A DNA stretch of 28,060 nucleotides from a virus: positions 1-28,060 of the IMG/VR virus record IMGVR_UViG_3300044825_000279; one strand, written 5' to 3'. Each line of letters opens with the position of its first letter. The stretch's first letter is position 1. The notes below the pieces were generated by a model. It did no database searches. It saw only the letters and a program-made list of their open reading frames with translations, and was not told where the DNA came from. Below, one piece after another: positions 17,215 to 26,969 of the stretch. Made by a program: the position numbers and the translations under genes.

Positions 17215-17991
17215 TCAGATATGTTTCCAAGACCGGCGCTTACGGATGTCGGTAATCGACTGCCGTGATACGCCGTATTTCAGAGCTAAGTCTTTCCCAG
17301 GTTCGGAACTAGCCCGAATCGCCAGCACGTCTTCCGCTGTTATCTTCGCAGCATAGCAAGTCTCACCTTGTTTTCCAACGCGTTTGTGATGCACGACTTC
17401 CCCGGCAATGTGCCGCCAAGAATGCCGTTGCTTCAAGCTGCCGATGGTTGACGCGGTGACACCGTAGTCTGCGGCAATCGCAGCGTAAGGGCGTGGGTCT
17501 GCGAGAATCGCAGCCGCTTGCTCATCTGTAAGGATGGCATTTGGCCGTTCAACGCCGCGTGGAGCGCGATTGCGCCCTTTTGCGACTTTTTCTGCCATGT
17601 TCTCTGCGTTAGTGCCAGAGCGAAGATGCGCGGGATTTACACAGCACGGGTTGTCACAAGAGTGAAGCGCTTGCGTTCCTACTAGCAGATCGCCAGTGTG
17701 AAACGCTAACGAAAAGCGATGCGCTTTTTTGAAGAGCACGCCACCAACCTCACCCTTAAACATTCCGTAGCCGTTTTTATCCCTTGCGCCAATCCACTCC
17801 CAGCACGTATCAGTCTTTTTGACTTGCATAAAGAACCTTGTCTCGGCGGGCAAGCCGCGAAACTGTCCTGAATGCTGCGCAACCGCTATCGGCGAACCAA
17901 ACTTACGGTTTCGCTTCCAGTGTTTGTCGCAAAGTCCTAAAGCCAACACGACGTTCTCGCATTCCTTGATACAGCAGATTTTGGGGTTCAT
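17215..17991 (-). CDS. Free-standing HNH homing endonuclease
   Basis: 258 residues. A zinc-ribbon-like N-terminus (C6, C7, C11, C21, H24) is followed by an HNH core: KKAHRFSLAFHTGD and ALHSCDNPCCVNPAHL, with GTNAENMAEK (H110, C112, C116, N119, H122). The C-terminal third has two related DNA-recognition repeats, about 153-196 and 215-258, each ending in a helix-turn-helix and SWRHI or SWKHI. This repeat layout is typical of intron- or phage-encoded homing nucleases. It lies between coat and the decoration-type gene in the same orientation. Its GGAG and ATG lie in the 3' arm of a perfect inverted repeat. Confidence 0.93.
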   Translation of the reverse strand: MNPKICCIKECENVVLALGLCDKHWKRNRKFGSPIAVAQHSGQFRGLPAETRFFMQVKKTDTCWEWIGARDKNGYGMFKGEVGGVLFKKAHRFSLAFHTGDLLVGTQALHSCDNPCCVNPAHLRSGTNAENMAEKVAKGRNRAPRGVERPNAILTDEQAAAILADPRPYAAIAADYGVTASTIGSLKQRHSWRHIAGEVVHHKRVGKQGETCYAAKITAEDVLAIRASSEPGKDLALKYGVSRQSITDIRKRRSWKHI

Positions 17992-18020
17992 ACTAGTCTC
18001 CGATTAGGGAGACTAGTATG
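17989..18020 (-). promoter_or_regulatory. Inverted repeat hiding the endonuclease start
   Basis: Perfect 13-bp arms: 18020-18008 (CATACTAGTCTCC on the minus strand) and 18001-17989 (GGAGACTAGTATG), with a 6-nt loop CTAATC. The 3' arm contains the GGAG ribosome site, a 6-nt spacer and the ATG of the HNH gene, so in a read-through coat transcript the whole initiation site is paired. No U-run follows, so it is not a standard terminator. Confidence 0.85.
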
Positions 18021-18044
18021 CCCCAACTAGTTCCGTACTGTCAA
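18015..18044 (-). promoter_or_regulatory. Candidate private promoter of the HNH gene
   Basis: On the minus strand TTGACA (18044-18039, consensus), 18-nt spacer, CATACT (18020-18015, 4 of 6). The expected transcription start is near 18008, at the end of the 5' arm of the inverted repeat. A transcript from here would lack that arm and leave the GGAG and ATG free. Activity is inferred only. Confidence 0.5.
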
Positions 18045-18056
18045 CTCTCTAGAGGG

Positions 18057-19206
18057 TTAGCCCCAGAGACGGACGGCCATTTGCGGCCGGATGACAGAAT
18101 ACCCGTACAATACATCGATGCGACAAGGAAGTCGATCATTATTGATGTCGTATTGCCGTACGATACGCATCGAAATGCCGTTGTGAACCTGGCGCGAAGC
18201 CATGTCCACGCCTTGCGGCATCAGCAGATCGGCGGTCGCAAACGAGATCGCGTCACGGTGATACACAAGGTTCTGCGGGTACTGGGTGCTGGCGCTTCCC
18301 AAGAAGGTCACAACTGCGCCTGCCTGCGGGAACGAGTCCACGGTCGCCAGAGCTTGCGAGCTGGTGTAGATCGCCGGGCTCACGCTGACAGTGTACGCGC
18401 CGCTGGACGCGGTAGCGTCGGCAGTAGCAACGAACTGCTGCAGCGAACCAGTCGACTCACGGGTCTGCGGGTTAACCGCAAACACGCCAGCGATCGTGAA
18501 CACGTCGCCTGCCCGGATGATCTGCGAGCCAGTGCCGGTGATGGCAATGGTGGTCGCGCCTTGCGAGGACACGGTGGTCGTCACAGTATGCGCGCCCGTG
18601 CGGGTGCCGGTCGTGAACTGCTTGATCGACTGGGACATGTTGACTTCGTCAAGCCCGAGGATGCCTTCGCCCATCATGCCGTTCTTAAACTGACGGCTGA
18701 TGGTGGAGGTCGGGTTAAAGAGGCCTTTCATGCCTTCGACCAGCGCTGCGTTGGCCGCCGGGTTGACGGTCGCGTAGCGGGGGCTCATAACAGCAGCGGC
18801 TTCGTTCAGCTTCTGCTGCGCCTGCAGCAGCACGAGGCTGGTGCCGGGGGTCGTGCCGGGGGTGCCAACCGACTGGTAAACGTTACGGAAGGCGTTGGCA
18901 ACGTCAGCGTCGATGCTGGAAGCAAGCTGGCTGATACGAGGCTTCAGAACCCGTTCTGCGAAGTCATCGAGCTGCATGGTCAGCTCAGCGGTCGTGAAGT
19001 TCACGCCGATGTGCTTTTGGCTCGACACGGTCAGGGTGGTGAACTGTTCCTGATCGTCTTGAACTTGCAGCGCGGCACCGTCGGTCACCAGCGCGCGGTC
19101 CGGCAGACGGATACGCAGGGTGGAGCCGATTTTTGCGCCTTGAACAGCAAACGAGTCGTCGTACTGACGGTTAACGTTGCGGGTGATCACCAGGTTGTTC
19201 TCGAGG
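18057..19206 (-). CDS. Major coat protein, exon 2 (residues 18-400)
   Basis: P22-type major capsid protein. The exon begins at the predicted 3' splice site and supplies the third base of codon 18, then LENNLVITRNVNRQYDDSFA, GAKIGSTLRIRLP and NFTTAELTMQLDDFAERVL, the strongly conserved N-terminal region of this family. The middle carries an Ig-like insertion-type stretch (about 190-290) and the end reads INNDRLPCRIDVLYGYSVIR. The frame is open upstream to 19268, but the 21 extra residues are intron sequence and not coat-like. With exon 1 it gives 400 residues (53 + 1150 nt). The product forms the capsid shell after scaffold-directed assembly. Confidence 0.92.
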
Positions 19207-19967
19207 CCATGTGTTCGCCAAGGTTCGCTACGCCTTGACCGCCCTTTCGGGCTGCTGCATGTCACCATGCAGAGCAGACTATCTCTTCACCCTCTTACGA
19301 GGGGCTGTGCGCTTCCGGCCGCTTGGCCGTACTCCCTTACGGGATAGTCGTTACACCTTCCGCTGGTGAGGGCAAACGCCGCCGTTTTTGTGTTTACCGA
19401 CCTGACAGTTCATGCACAGCACTTGATAGCCGGGCGGGAACTTGTGCTTACACAACCAAAGATAGAACGCTGTGCCGCTGCTGCGATACGCACCAGACTT
19501 ACGCTCCACGTTGCCATCGTTGTTGATGTGGTCGATCGACAAAAACATCCGCTCAGTTTCGCCGCAGCACGCGCAACGATAGCCACCATAGGCAGCAAAT
19601 ACTTCGTCGCGTCGCCGGTCTTGGTTACGCTTTGTCTTTGCAGCTTCAGCAGCGCGTATGGCCGCTTCTTCTTCGGGACTTGCGTTTGCCAATTTCCGGT
19701 TGCGCCATTCGCGAGCGTGTTCCCGTGCTTTTTCACGGTTTTGCTCACGCCATTCGCGCATGCGTCGGTTGAATTCTTCACGGTTGCGTTCACGATAGCG
19801 AGCAGCGGCTTGGCGGTTAGCCTCGCGTGCTTCTGCTGCTTTGTCACTATCATGATTACCTTCACTTTTGGCTTGGCTCGGTGTTTTCATGTAATCATTC
19901 TACATGACGTCCACCGAATTCACACAGTTTTTCTACTGGGGTTACCCCCAGAGGAGACCATTAGTTA
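19207..19967 (-). ncRNA. Group I intron (td-like, IA2) in the coat gene
   Basis: 761 nt. P1: exon GAGAU (ending 19968) pairs with GUCUC (19958-19954), with U.G exactly at the 5' site. P2: CUGGGG-GUAA-CCCCAG (19951-19936). P4: GGUGG (19915-19911) with UCACC (19369-19365). P7: GACUAUC (19349-19343) with GAUAGUC (19283-19277). P9: CUGCAUG-GUGA-CAUGCAG (19272-19255), then the hairpins CCC-GAAA-GGG and CAAGG/CCUUG. The stretches UAACGACUAUCCC and GCUCUGCAUGGUGACAUGCA match the T4 td intron as I remember it. It ends in G at 19207. Joining the exons restores the coat frame (AU|C). P3, P6 and P10 were not resolved. Confidence 0.92.
19351..19890 (-). CDS. Intron-encoded HNH homing endonuclease
   Basis: 179 residues. 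The N-terminal half (20-95) is a long Arg/Glu helix with repeats like REQNREKAREHAREWRNRK, probably a DNA-contacting rod. The HNH domain follows: CACCG (C106, C109), LSIDHINNDGN (D120, H121, N123), then YQVLCMNCQVGKHKNGG (C159, C162) with a zinc-ribbon frame. It likely cuts intronless coat genes to spread the intron. Its TAA stop is part of the conserved UAACGACUA core, as in T4 td/I-TevI, though I-TevI is a GIY-YIG enzyme, not HNH. The ATG sits in a 6-bp stem (CATGTA/TACATG, 19906-19888), so initiation may be restrained by folding. No clear Shine-Dalgarno. Confidence 0.92.
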   Translation of the reverse strand: MKTPSQAKSEGNHDSDKAAEAREANRQAAARYRERNREEFNRRMREWREQNREKAREHAREWRNRKLANASPEEEAAIRAAEAAKTKRNQDRRRDEVFAAYGGYRCACCGETERMFLSIDHINNDGNVERKSGAYRSSGTAFYLWLCKHKFPPGYQVLCMNCQVGKHKNGGVCPHQRKV

Positions 19968-20020
19968 ATCTCGAGTGCTTTCCTGGTGATCATGTCAATC
20001 GTTAAGATTGAATTAACCAT
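19968..20020 (-). CDS. Major coat protein, exon 1 (residues 1-17 plus 2 nt)
   Basis: ATG 20020 with AAAGGAG upstream (about 11 nt). It reads MVNSILTIDMITRKALE and then AU, the first two bases of codon 18; the unspliced frame stops two codons later (I, N, stop). The family start MxNxLLTxxMITxEAL...VLEN is matched only when exon 2 is added, giving KALEI-LENNLV. Unspliced mRNA would give a 19-residue dead-end peptide. Too short for gene finders, hence easily missed. Confidence 0.88.
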
Positions 20021-26051: not shown

Positions 26052-26210
26052 CTACCTCTTTTTAGCTGTTTTAGCCGACTCTTTGAACGCTTTTGCGGTC
26101 GGTGCACCGGGTGCCCCCGGCTTTCGCATTTTCTCGCCAGACCCAGCTTTGATGCGCTCGCGTTTAGCGTGAATCGCTGCGTACAAACCAGGATCGCCGG
26201 GCTTTTTCAT
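26052..26210 (-). CDS. Small basic phage protein
   Basis: 52 residues: MKKPGDPGLYAAIHAKRERI then KAGSGEKMRKPGAPGAPTAK and a Lys-rich end. The KPGDPGLYAxIHAKRERIKAGSGEKMRKPGxxGAPT pattern is a recurrent small phage protein near terminase and portal. It is rich in Lys, Arg and Gly and probably binds nucleic acid. It begins by ATGA overlap with the HNH gene and ends 2 nt before the next gene. Confidence 0.8.
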   Translation of the reverse strand: MKKPGDPGLYAAIHAKRERIKAGSGEKMRKPGAPGAPTAKAFKESAKTAKKR

Positions 26211-26704
26211 TTGTGCGCTCCAACCGCAAGTTCTAGTCTATCGTCGCCAAGAAATTGTGCAACATCTCGGCACAACTCATAAAAATCTTCGTATGCAAAG
26301 TCTGATTTCATGCGATTTATTGCTTGGCACACCAAAATTGTATTTTCTGGCGTGTAGCCAATATCACTGTGAATGCGCTCTATAGAGACTGTATTTAGAT
26401 GCCCAGCTTCAAGCGTCATTTGGCGTCCGCTGTACGCGCATACGCCCCATTGAGTGTGCCAACACTTAACAATGTCTTGAATTGATAGAGAAAATTCTTG
26501 GTTGCGTTTAGCCGCGCTGTTTTTGGCGTTCCGCAAAAATACGCGAGCGCGGCCTTCAATCGTAGAGTTTATTTTTTCAAGCGAGCGAGCACTTCCTTTG
26601 CGGCAACATTCTTTGCACCAACTATGATAGCCGTCTGCCGTCTGCGCATGCTTAAAGTACAAGTCAAACGGCTTGCTGGTCTTGCACTTAAAGCAAGTCT
26701 TCAT
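26207..26704 (-). CDS. Free-standing HNH endonuclease with zinc fingers
   Basis: 165 residues from ATG 26704. The upstream open frame (to 26770) lies in the previous gene, and MKTCFKCKTSKPFDLYFKHA is the natural beginning. CxxC (4, 7) and WCKECC (30, 33, 34) form a zinc finger. The nuclease part has WGVCAYSGRQM, AGHLNTVSIERIHSDIGYTP and ENTILVCQAINRMKSD, which is the HNH-like order (Ser-Ile-Glu-Arg, Asn, Cys-x-x-x-Asn). Such genes are homing or packaging-associated nucleases. It sits in the compact terL-portal string and could be a recent insertion or a P22-like packaging accessory; the first is more likely. Confidence 0.85.
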   Translation of the reverse strand: MKTCFKCKTSKPFDLYFKHAQTADGYHSWCKECCRKGSARSLEKINSTIEGRARVFLRNAKNSAAKRNQEFSLSIQDIVKCWHTQWGVCAYSGRQMTLEAGHLNTVSIERIHSDIGYTPENTILVCQAINRMKSDFAYEDFYELCRDVAQFLGDDRLELAVGAHK

Positions 26705-26705
26705 G

Positions 26706-26969
26706 TCAGCATTTCCATCGTTTGAGTGACGCCTTAGCGCGCTCTGCGTCGCCTTTGGCATTCCTGACAACTCCTGACATGCGGGCGCAGAAGGATGCTT
26801 TGCGGCCTTTGTCAGCTTCAGTCTTCGGGTTGGGTGCGGGCGCTTTGAGGTTGCTGCCGGTGGCTGCGTTGTACTTGGCTCGGCCTTTGGCTGTCAGGCC
26901 AGCTCCCTTGGACACGGGCAGCTTCTCGCCGCGCCCCACTGCCAGACTCACAGATTTCTTCGTCGCCAT
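26706..26969 (-). CDS. DUF6321 small phage protein
   Basis: 87 residues from ATG 26969, which overlaps the terminase stop (TGATG). MATKKSVSLAVGRGEKLPVS, KGAGLTAKGRAKYNAATGSN and LKAPAPNPKTEADKGRKASF make up a well-known short phage protein that ends KGDAERAKASLKRWKC. The single-Cys ARMSG motif is conserved. It is highly basic and probably interacts with DNA during packaging, which is inference from composition and position. Confidence 0.85.
   Translation of the reverse strand: MATKKSVSLAVGRGEKLPVSKGAGLTAKGRAKYNAATGSNLKAPAPNPKTEADKGRKASFCARMSGVVRNAKGDAERAKASLKRWKC

Follow-up and report, generated by a model that had tools for sequence, protein, structure and literature searches.

Capsid genes are normally among the most highly expressed genes of a phage, and an endonuclease gene that sits directly behind one raises the question of how its expression is kept apart from that of the structural message. 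The window analysed here, a stretch of 28,060 nucleotides of viral DNA (positions 1 to 28,060 of IMG/VR record IMGVR_UViG_3300044825_000279), contains such a gene on its minus strand. A coat gene matching P22_CoatProtein (E 2e-36) ends at 18057, and the free-standing gene behind it matches HNH_3 and HNH PHROGs; from these matches and its scattered presence and absence on the coat tree, it is predicted to be a homing endonuclease gene. We propose that it probably carries a cis-acting insulator, in which a private sigma70-type promoter is combined with a lock on the ribosome-binding site (RBS) against read-through from the coat mRNA. The features concerned are as follows.

18057-19210, minus strand: 3' part of the coat gene, putative source of the read-through RNA (P22_CoatProtein; the upper, exon, edge is approximate)
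18039-18044, minus strand: -35-like hexamer TTGACA (promoter match; conserved form in close relatives)
18021-18026, minus strand: 5' side of the outer helix, TTGGGG (RNA fold)
18008-18020, minus strand: 5' arm of the hairpin, CATACTAGTCTCC (inverted-repeat match and covariation)
18015-18020, minus strand: -10-like hexamer CATACT, the outer part of the 5' arm (promoter match; relatives have TATACT or TACACT here)
about 18008-18004, minus strand: predicted transcription start (from the spacing to the -10)
18002-18007, minus strand: loop CTAATC, 6 nt (RNA fold)
17989-18001, minus strand: 3' arm of the hairpin, GGAGACTAGTATG, that is GGAG-ACTAGT-ATG (inverted-repeat match and covariation)
18001-17998, minus strand: Shine-Dalgarno (SD) sequence GGAG, in the 3' arm, with a 6-nt spacer to the ATG
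17991-17989, minus strand: start codon ATG of the HNH gene, in the 3' arm
17981-17986, minus strand: 3' side of the outer helix, CCCCAA, in HNH codons 2-4 (RNA fold)
17215-17991, minus strand: free-standing HNH endonuclease gene, 258 aa (HNH_3; phrog_59, phrog_3593)

The initial annotation had described perfect 13-bp arms enclosing the GGAG, spacer and ATG of the HNH gene, and this is confirmed. The arms of the hairpin at 17989-18020 are complementary at 13 of 13 positions, and the helix extends to 19 pairs when the outer GGGG/CCCC helix, reached across a 2-nt AA bulge, is counted in the longer fold with its six pairs TTGGGG/CCCCAA. The folded RNA has a free energy of -29.2 kcal/mol (z -6.3), a stability equalled by none of 200 shuffles, while the same RNA without its 5' arm is predicted to be nearly unstructured (-2.6 kcal/mol). 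No other inverted repeat of at least 10 bp (loop 3-20) occurs in the 28-kb window, and none of 30 dinucleotide shuffles of the window produced one of 13 bp. An Rfam search of the window at the gathering threshold gave no match.

The structure is shared by close relatives. A scan of viral contigs yielded 20 loci with an HNH gene 65-100% identical to that of the window, and a hairpin lies between the coat stop and the HNH start in all 19 loci whose upstream region was read. In an alignment of 13 of these loci, which amount to 10 distinct rows, standard pairs make up 96.2% of the cells in the 13-bp helix, against at most 44.7% in slid controls, and both sides have changed at 5 of the 13 pairs. 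The change in L009 reaches the start codon itself, which is GTG there and faces C instead of T, a compensatory change. G-U pairs are frequent in the helix, and pairing is kept while the sequence varies freely among relatives. The window hairpin is thus not a product of chance. A three-segment switch, in which an upstream GAACTAGT would pair with the 5' arm, was considered separately and rejected; this pairing reaches at most 8 bp in some close relatives and is absent from L005, L016 and L021.

The promoter proposed at the outset, TTGACA-18-CATACT, is present at 18044-18015, between the coat stop and the hairpin and with its -10 within the 5' arm; transcription from the arm/loop edge is a prediction from its spacing. 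As a single match it is near chance, since 10 promoter-like sites were found in 14 kb where 7.8 were expected, but it gains weight because its position inside the hairpin is kept in relatives. In close relatives the -35 reads TTGACA, TTGCCA or TTGCAG, 18 nt before the -10; the more distant L016, L017 and L021 lack that -35 but have a TGn extended -10, and several distant relatives have TATAAT as their -10. A T4 late-type promoter, TATAAATA, is absent from 17930-18150, which has TTGACA-18-CATACT instead.

Taken together, these elements suggest how a single RNA segment could separate two sources of transcription. The coat read-through RNA would hold both arms, with the SD and start codon buried in a long hairpin, and endonuclease would presumably not be made from the abundant coat message. 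A transcript from the private promoter, whose -10 lies in the 5' arm, would begin at the arm/loop edge, lack the 5' arm and leave the SD open. This predicted division into locked read-through RNA and open private transcript, already part of the initial annotation, is strongly supported by comparison: by covariation that includes ATG/GTG and its partner, by the -10 in the arm, and by recurrence behind capsid genes. The likely outcome would be low expression uncoupled from late structural transcription. Because the promoter is of host type, its timing may be early or constitutive, and with a sigma70-like promoter behind a late coat gene, the timing is probably the reverse of that of I-TevI.

The same plan appears well beyond the close relatives. 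Further HNH genes of roughly 33-64% identity were collected by profile search and from a named phage record, MW202691.1, and their upstream regions are unlike that of the window in sequence but follow the same plan. Examples are TGATATAATGCCCTCACATTAACTTGTGGGGGCATTTTTATG in L388, TGCTATAATACCCCTAGGTTAATTCTTAGGGGTATTTTTAATG in L442, TATATAATCCTCCCTGTAGTTATCTATGGGGAGGTTATATG in L036, CCGTATAATG...CATTATACGGAGAATCTATG in MW202691.1 (L218), and L385, where TATAAT lies in the loop of a GCCTCCG/CGGAGGC stem. To quantify the plan, we calculated how much free energy it takes to expose the SD and start codon, both in the long transcript and in one starting 7 nt past the best -10. In the long transcript the median cost was 19.3 kcal/mol for 39 HNH starts, in contrast to 6.0 kcal/mol for 174 other starts from the same locus sets. 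A joint lock-plus-promoter criterion (a cost of at least 10 kcal/mol, a -10 of at least 4/6 and a drop of at least 6) was satisfied by 31 of the 39 related HNH starts and by 1 of the 174 other gene starts, the family counts being non-independent through shared descent and several start codons having been picked by eye. Among the HNH genes adjacent to capsid genes, whose starts have a median opening cost of 20 kcal/mol, 30 of 33 satisfied it, as did 3.2% of 1320 dinucleotide-shuffled versions of the sequence upstream of these genes. The exceptions are L379, L386 and L391; L384 was left out because its N-terminus was missing from the match, which makes its start uncertain, and L033 looks intron-like. 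Two genes, T4 e and segB, served as the positive controls for the measure, and they ranked 4th and 3rd, respectively, of 50 T4 genes by opening cost.

What these genes have in common is their position. The upstream neighbour was a major capsid protein, of either the P22 coat or the SU10_MCP type, in 10 of 10 cases tested with Pfam, and about 45-70 nt separate the capsid stop from the HNH start. The HNH tree places the P22-side genes together in a large group and the SU10-side genes in a second one, with L401 and L218 outside both and of no firm position. Related HNH genes behind the two kinds of capsid gene would seem to have either retained the design or arrived at it anew. In contrast, among related HNH genes that mostly lie elsewhere, 2 of 63 satisfied the joint criterion, and one of these two, L452, is actually located behind an SU10 capsid gene. 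L395, on the SU10 side, was overlooked by the automatic choice of start codon and has the design as well. The rule suggested is one of position: behind a capsid gene the HNH start is predicted to be locked, and elsewhere it mostly is not. L248, found by a motif pattern and kept out of the statistics, carries an HNH gene of a different family (HNH_3 plus HNH) with TTGACG-17-TATACTAGCCTC...GAGGCTAGTATTATTATG; the gene in front of it encodes 393 aa and is of uncertain identity. This upstream gene had no match in Pfam, and its AlphaFold model was uninformative (pLDDT 28); the relative L497 gave a weak match to a major-head PHROG (E 0.005). The HNH-less relatives L497, L498 and L499 have terminator-like hairpins at that place (L498 and L499 judged by eye). 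L268, considered as another case, was rejected, as merely a 17-codon frame is present there.

Alleles that lack the endonuclease gene bear on where the hairpin came from. Near-identical coat genes occur with or without the HNH gene; on the coat tree this pattern takes 12 changes, of which well-supported branches force at least 7, and presence clusters no better than shuffled labels. Such scattered presence is the pattern expected for a homing element. At six HNH-less loci (L165, L166, L180, L186, L193 and L197), the corresponding position is occupied by TTGACA-18-CACACT and a 15-bp hairpin, which could be left over from a lost HNH gene or could be ancestral; a different function of the hairpin is therefore conceivable. 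In the HNH-less L220-L247, a perfect hairpin is followed by TTTCTATTT, with a 3' half that resembles the 5' arm of the window; aligned by eye, TTTCTATTT and the 5' arm region of filled alleles are 79% identical over 28 nt. Of the 58 distinct 3' flanks of HNH-less capsid genes, 29 have terminator-like hairpins, and the lock was thus possibly derived from a capsid terminator.

The same flanks, together with the hairpins kept at L165, L166, L193 and L197 and the one that precedes TTTCTATTT in L220-L247, could also mean that the hairpin mainly terminates or stabilises the 3' end of the coat mRNA and that the HNH start has simply come to lie over it. We consider this unlikely. The hairpin in the window has no terminator T-run after it but is followed by AACCCC, and in the diverged loci with an HNH gene the 3' arm invariably contains the SD, and the -10 falls within the 5' arm or the loop, neither of which a terminator needs; moreover, the feature tracks HNH genes sited behind capsid genes. 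An origin as a terminator with a later change of use is possible, and it would offer a possible route by which a selfish gene could establish itself in a structural operon at no cost to the phage that carries it. Tentatively, and with considerable doubt, we would extend the RBS-lock reading to a general form, in which homing genes that invade the position behind major capsid genes repeatedly remodel the capsid terminator hairpin so that it locks the RBS and embeds a sigma70 promoter, giving a portable, early-expressed insulator (termination and translational lock together in some) that several unrelated phage groups have either evolved or retained.

Somewhat less probable again than a terminator with a chance overlap is that there is no private promoter at all, and that the hairpin alone limits expression until it is opened by RNA processing (e.g. 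RNase III) or by ribosomes. CATACT is indeed the exact complement of AGTATG, so the -10 is partly dictated by stem pairing, and the near-chance score of the match fits this explanation too. However, the first base of the -10 is T in most distinct rows (TATACT, TACACT) and not the Watson-Crick C, and this T pairs with the G of ATG solely as a wobble, which suggests selection on the -10 besides the stem. The retention of a -35 or TGn in relatives also argues against it, as do perfect TATAAT sequences in L036, L218, L385, L388 and L442, where the start codon is not the pairing partner, and a -10 matching at 5/6 or better, seen in 21 of the 33 capsid-adjacent HNH genes versus 22% of shuffles. That the inverted repeat acts as DNA, being an operator or a cleavage-resistant target of the HNH protein instead of an RNA hairpin, strikes us as very improbable. 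I-TevI does repress its own promoter via an overlapping operator (PMC2988022), and the repeat in the window likewise overlaps the proposed promoter; yet the frequent G-U pairs, and pairing that is kept despite free sequence change, fit RNA better.

For the favoured reading, a private promoter joined to an RBS lock, the underlying principle is established for I-TevI and has been described for I-TevII, I-TevIII, T4 segB and Aeh1 mobE (PMC2988022, PMC3014915). For I-TevI, the RNAs made early and in the middle phase are locked, and the open RNA comes from a late promoter (PMC2988022). As predicted for the window, the endonuclease gene of these T4-type systems lies inside the transcription unit of another gene, the read-through RNA carries an RBS hairpin, and the promoter is placed so that the gene's own RNA lacks the hairpin-forming sequence. 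The initial view of the locus as an independent case of I-TevI logic is supported as regards the logic, but the promoter is sigma70-like and not T4 late, and the upstream gene is a late coat gene. The suggestion that a free-standing HNH gene would be new to this design does not stand, as Aeh1 mobE is a free-standing HNH gene as well and T4 segB provides a further precedent (PMC2988022). T4 gene e, which has an RBS hairpin in its longer early transcripts and a promoter around the 5' strand, so that late transcripts lack that strand (PMC3014915), is different again: it belongs to the phage itself, is controlled by T4 late promoters and is not mobile. T4-type homing genes use T4 late promoters and silence early and middle read-through (PMC2988022). 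The window, in contrast, combines a sigma70-like promoter with a late capsid gene upstream, and the phages concerned have P22-type or SU10-type capsids.

IS10 likewise has a mobile transposase gene with its own promoter, and RNA structure prevents this gene from being translated on transcripts that come in from outside. Self-protection of Tn10 and IS200 from outside transcription is credited to Davis 1985 and Beuzon 1999 in a passage of PMC2965389. By analogy, the HNH gene of the window appears to work like these systems but is not a member of them: its product is an HNH_3 protein and not an insertion-sequence transposase, whereas Tn10/IS10 and IS200 encode such a transposase and no HNH homing gene at a fixed capsid-side site.

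Homing endonuclease genes near capsid genes are common, and the survey reporting this mentions neither promoters nor hairpins (PMC10448857). In the open-licence literature we found no description of sigma70-type promoters in RBS hairpins as a common trait of capsid-adjacent HNH genes, which is weak evidence of novelty. What appears to be new here is the host-type promoter version and its place behind capsid genes; the basic trick is already known from T4 and from transposons. Our results suggest that the T4 logic of a promoter inside an RBS hairpin is a general solution for homing genes behind the capsid genes of unrelated phages, with promoters of host type, and the natural variants are ready-made for testing the position rule.

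Several further observations were made in passing. In L388, L395 and L442, TTTTT or TTTTTT stands between the hairpin and the HNH ATG, so these hairpins could be terminator and RBS lock at once. Within the window, the coat gene is split in its 5' part by a group I intron at 19255-19976 on the minus strand (RF00028, E 8.1e-08, a score under the gathering threshold), which contains an HNH-like ORF of its own at 19351-19890; together with the free-standing gene, this makes the coat gene the target of two different HNH elements. The start of the intron ORF (19888-19906, minus strand) lies in a perfect 6-bp hairpin, CATGTA/TACATG, with TAGAAT across the 5' arm and loop, which could be chance because it is so short. 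An ORF near the terminase end (26207-26770, minus strand) looks HNH-like by eye and had no match in Pfam.

Promoters inside RBS hairpins may be a common insulator design. Many small genes of other viral contigs (L255, L266, L274, L294, L311, L287, L293, L254 and others) follow this plan, with TATAAT and GGAGG both perfect, as in TATAATCATCTCGAAAGGAGGTGATTATAATG, and it often lies just past a terminator-like hairpin with a T-run. In T4 (NC_000866, 48000-74000; L502), regB, nrdC.8, denV and e.8 have a TATAAT- or TACTAT-type sequence between the arms of an SD-covering hairpin, as in TCCTCTTGACTGTGGTATAAT...AAGAGGA of regB, and the opening cost is higher for regB and nrdC.8 than for e and segB.
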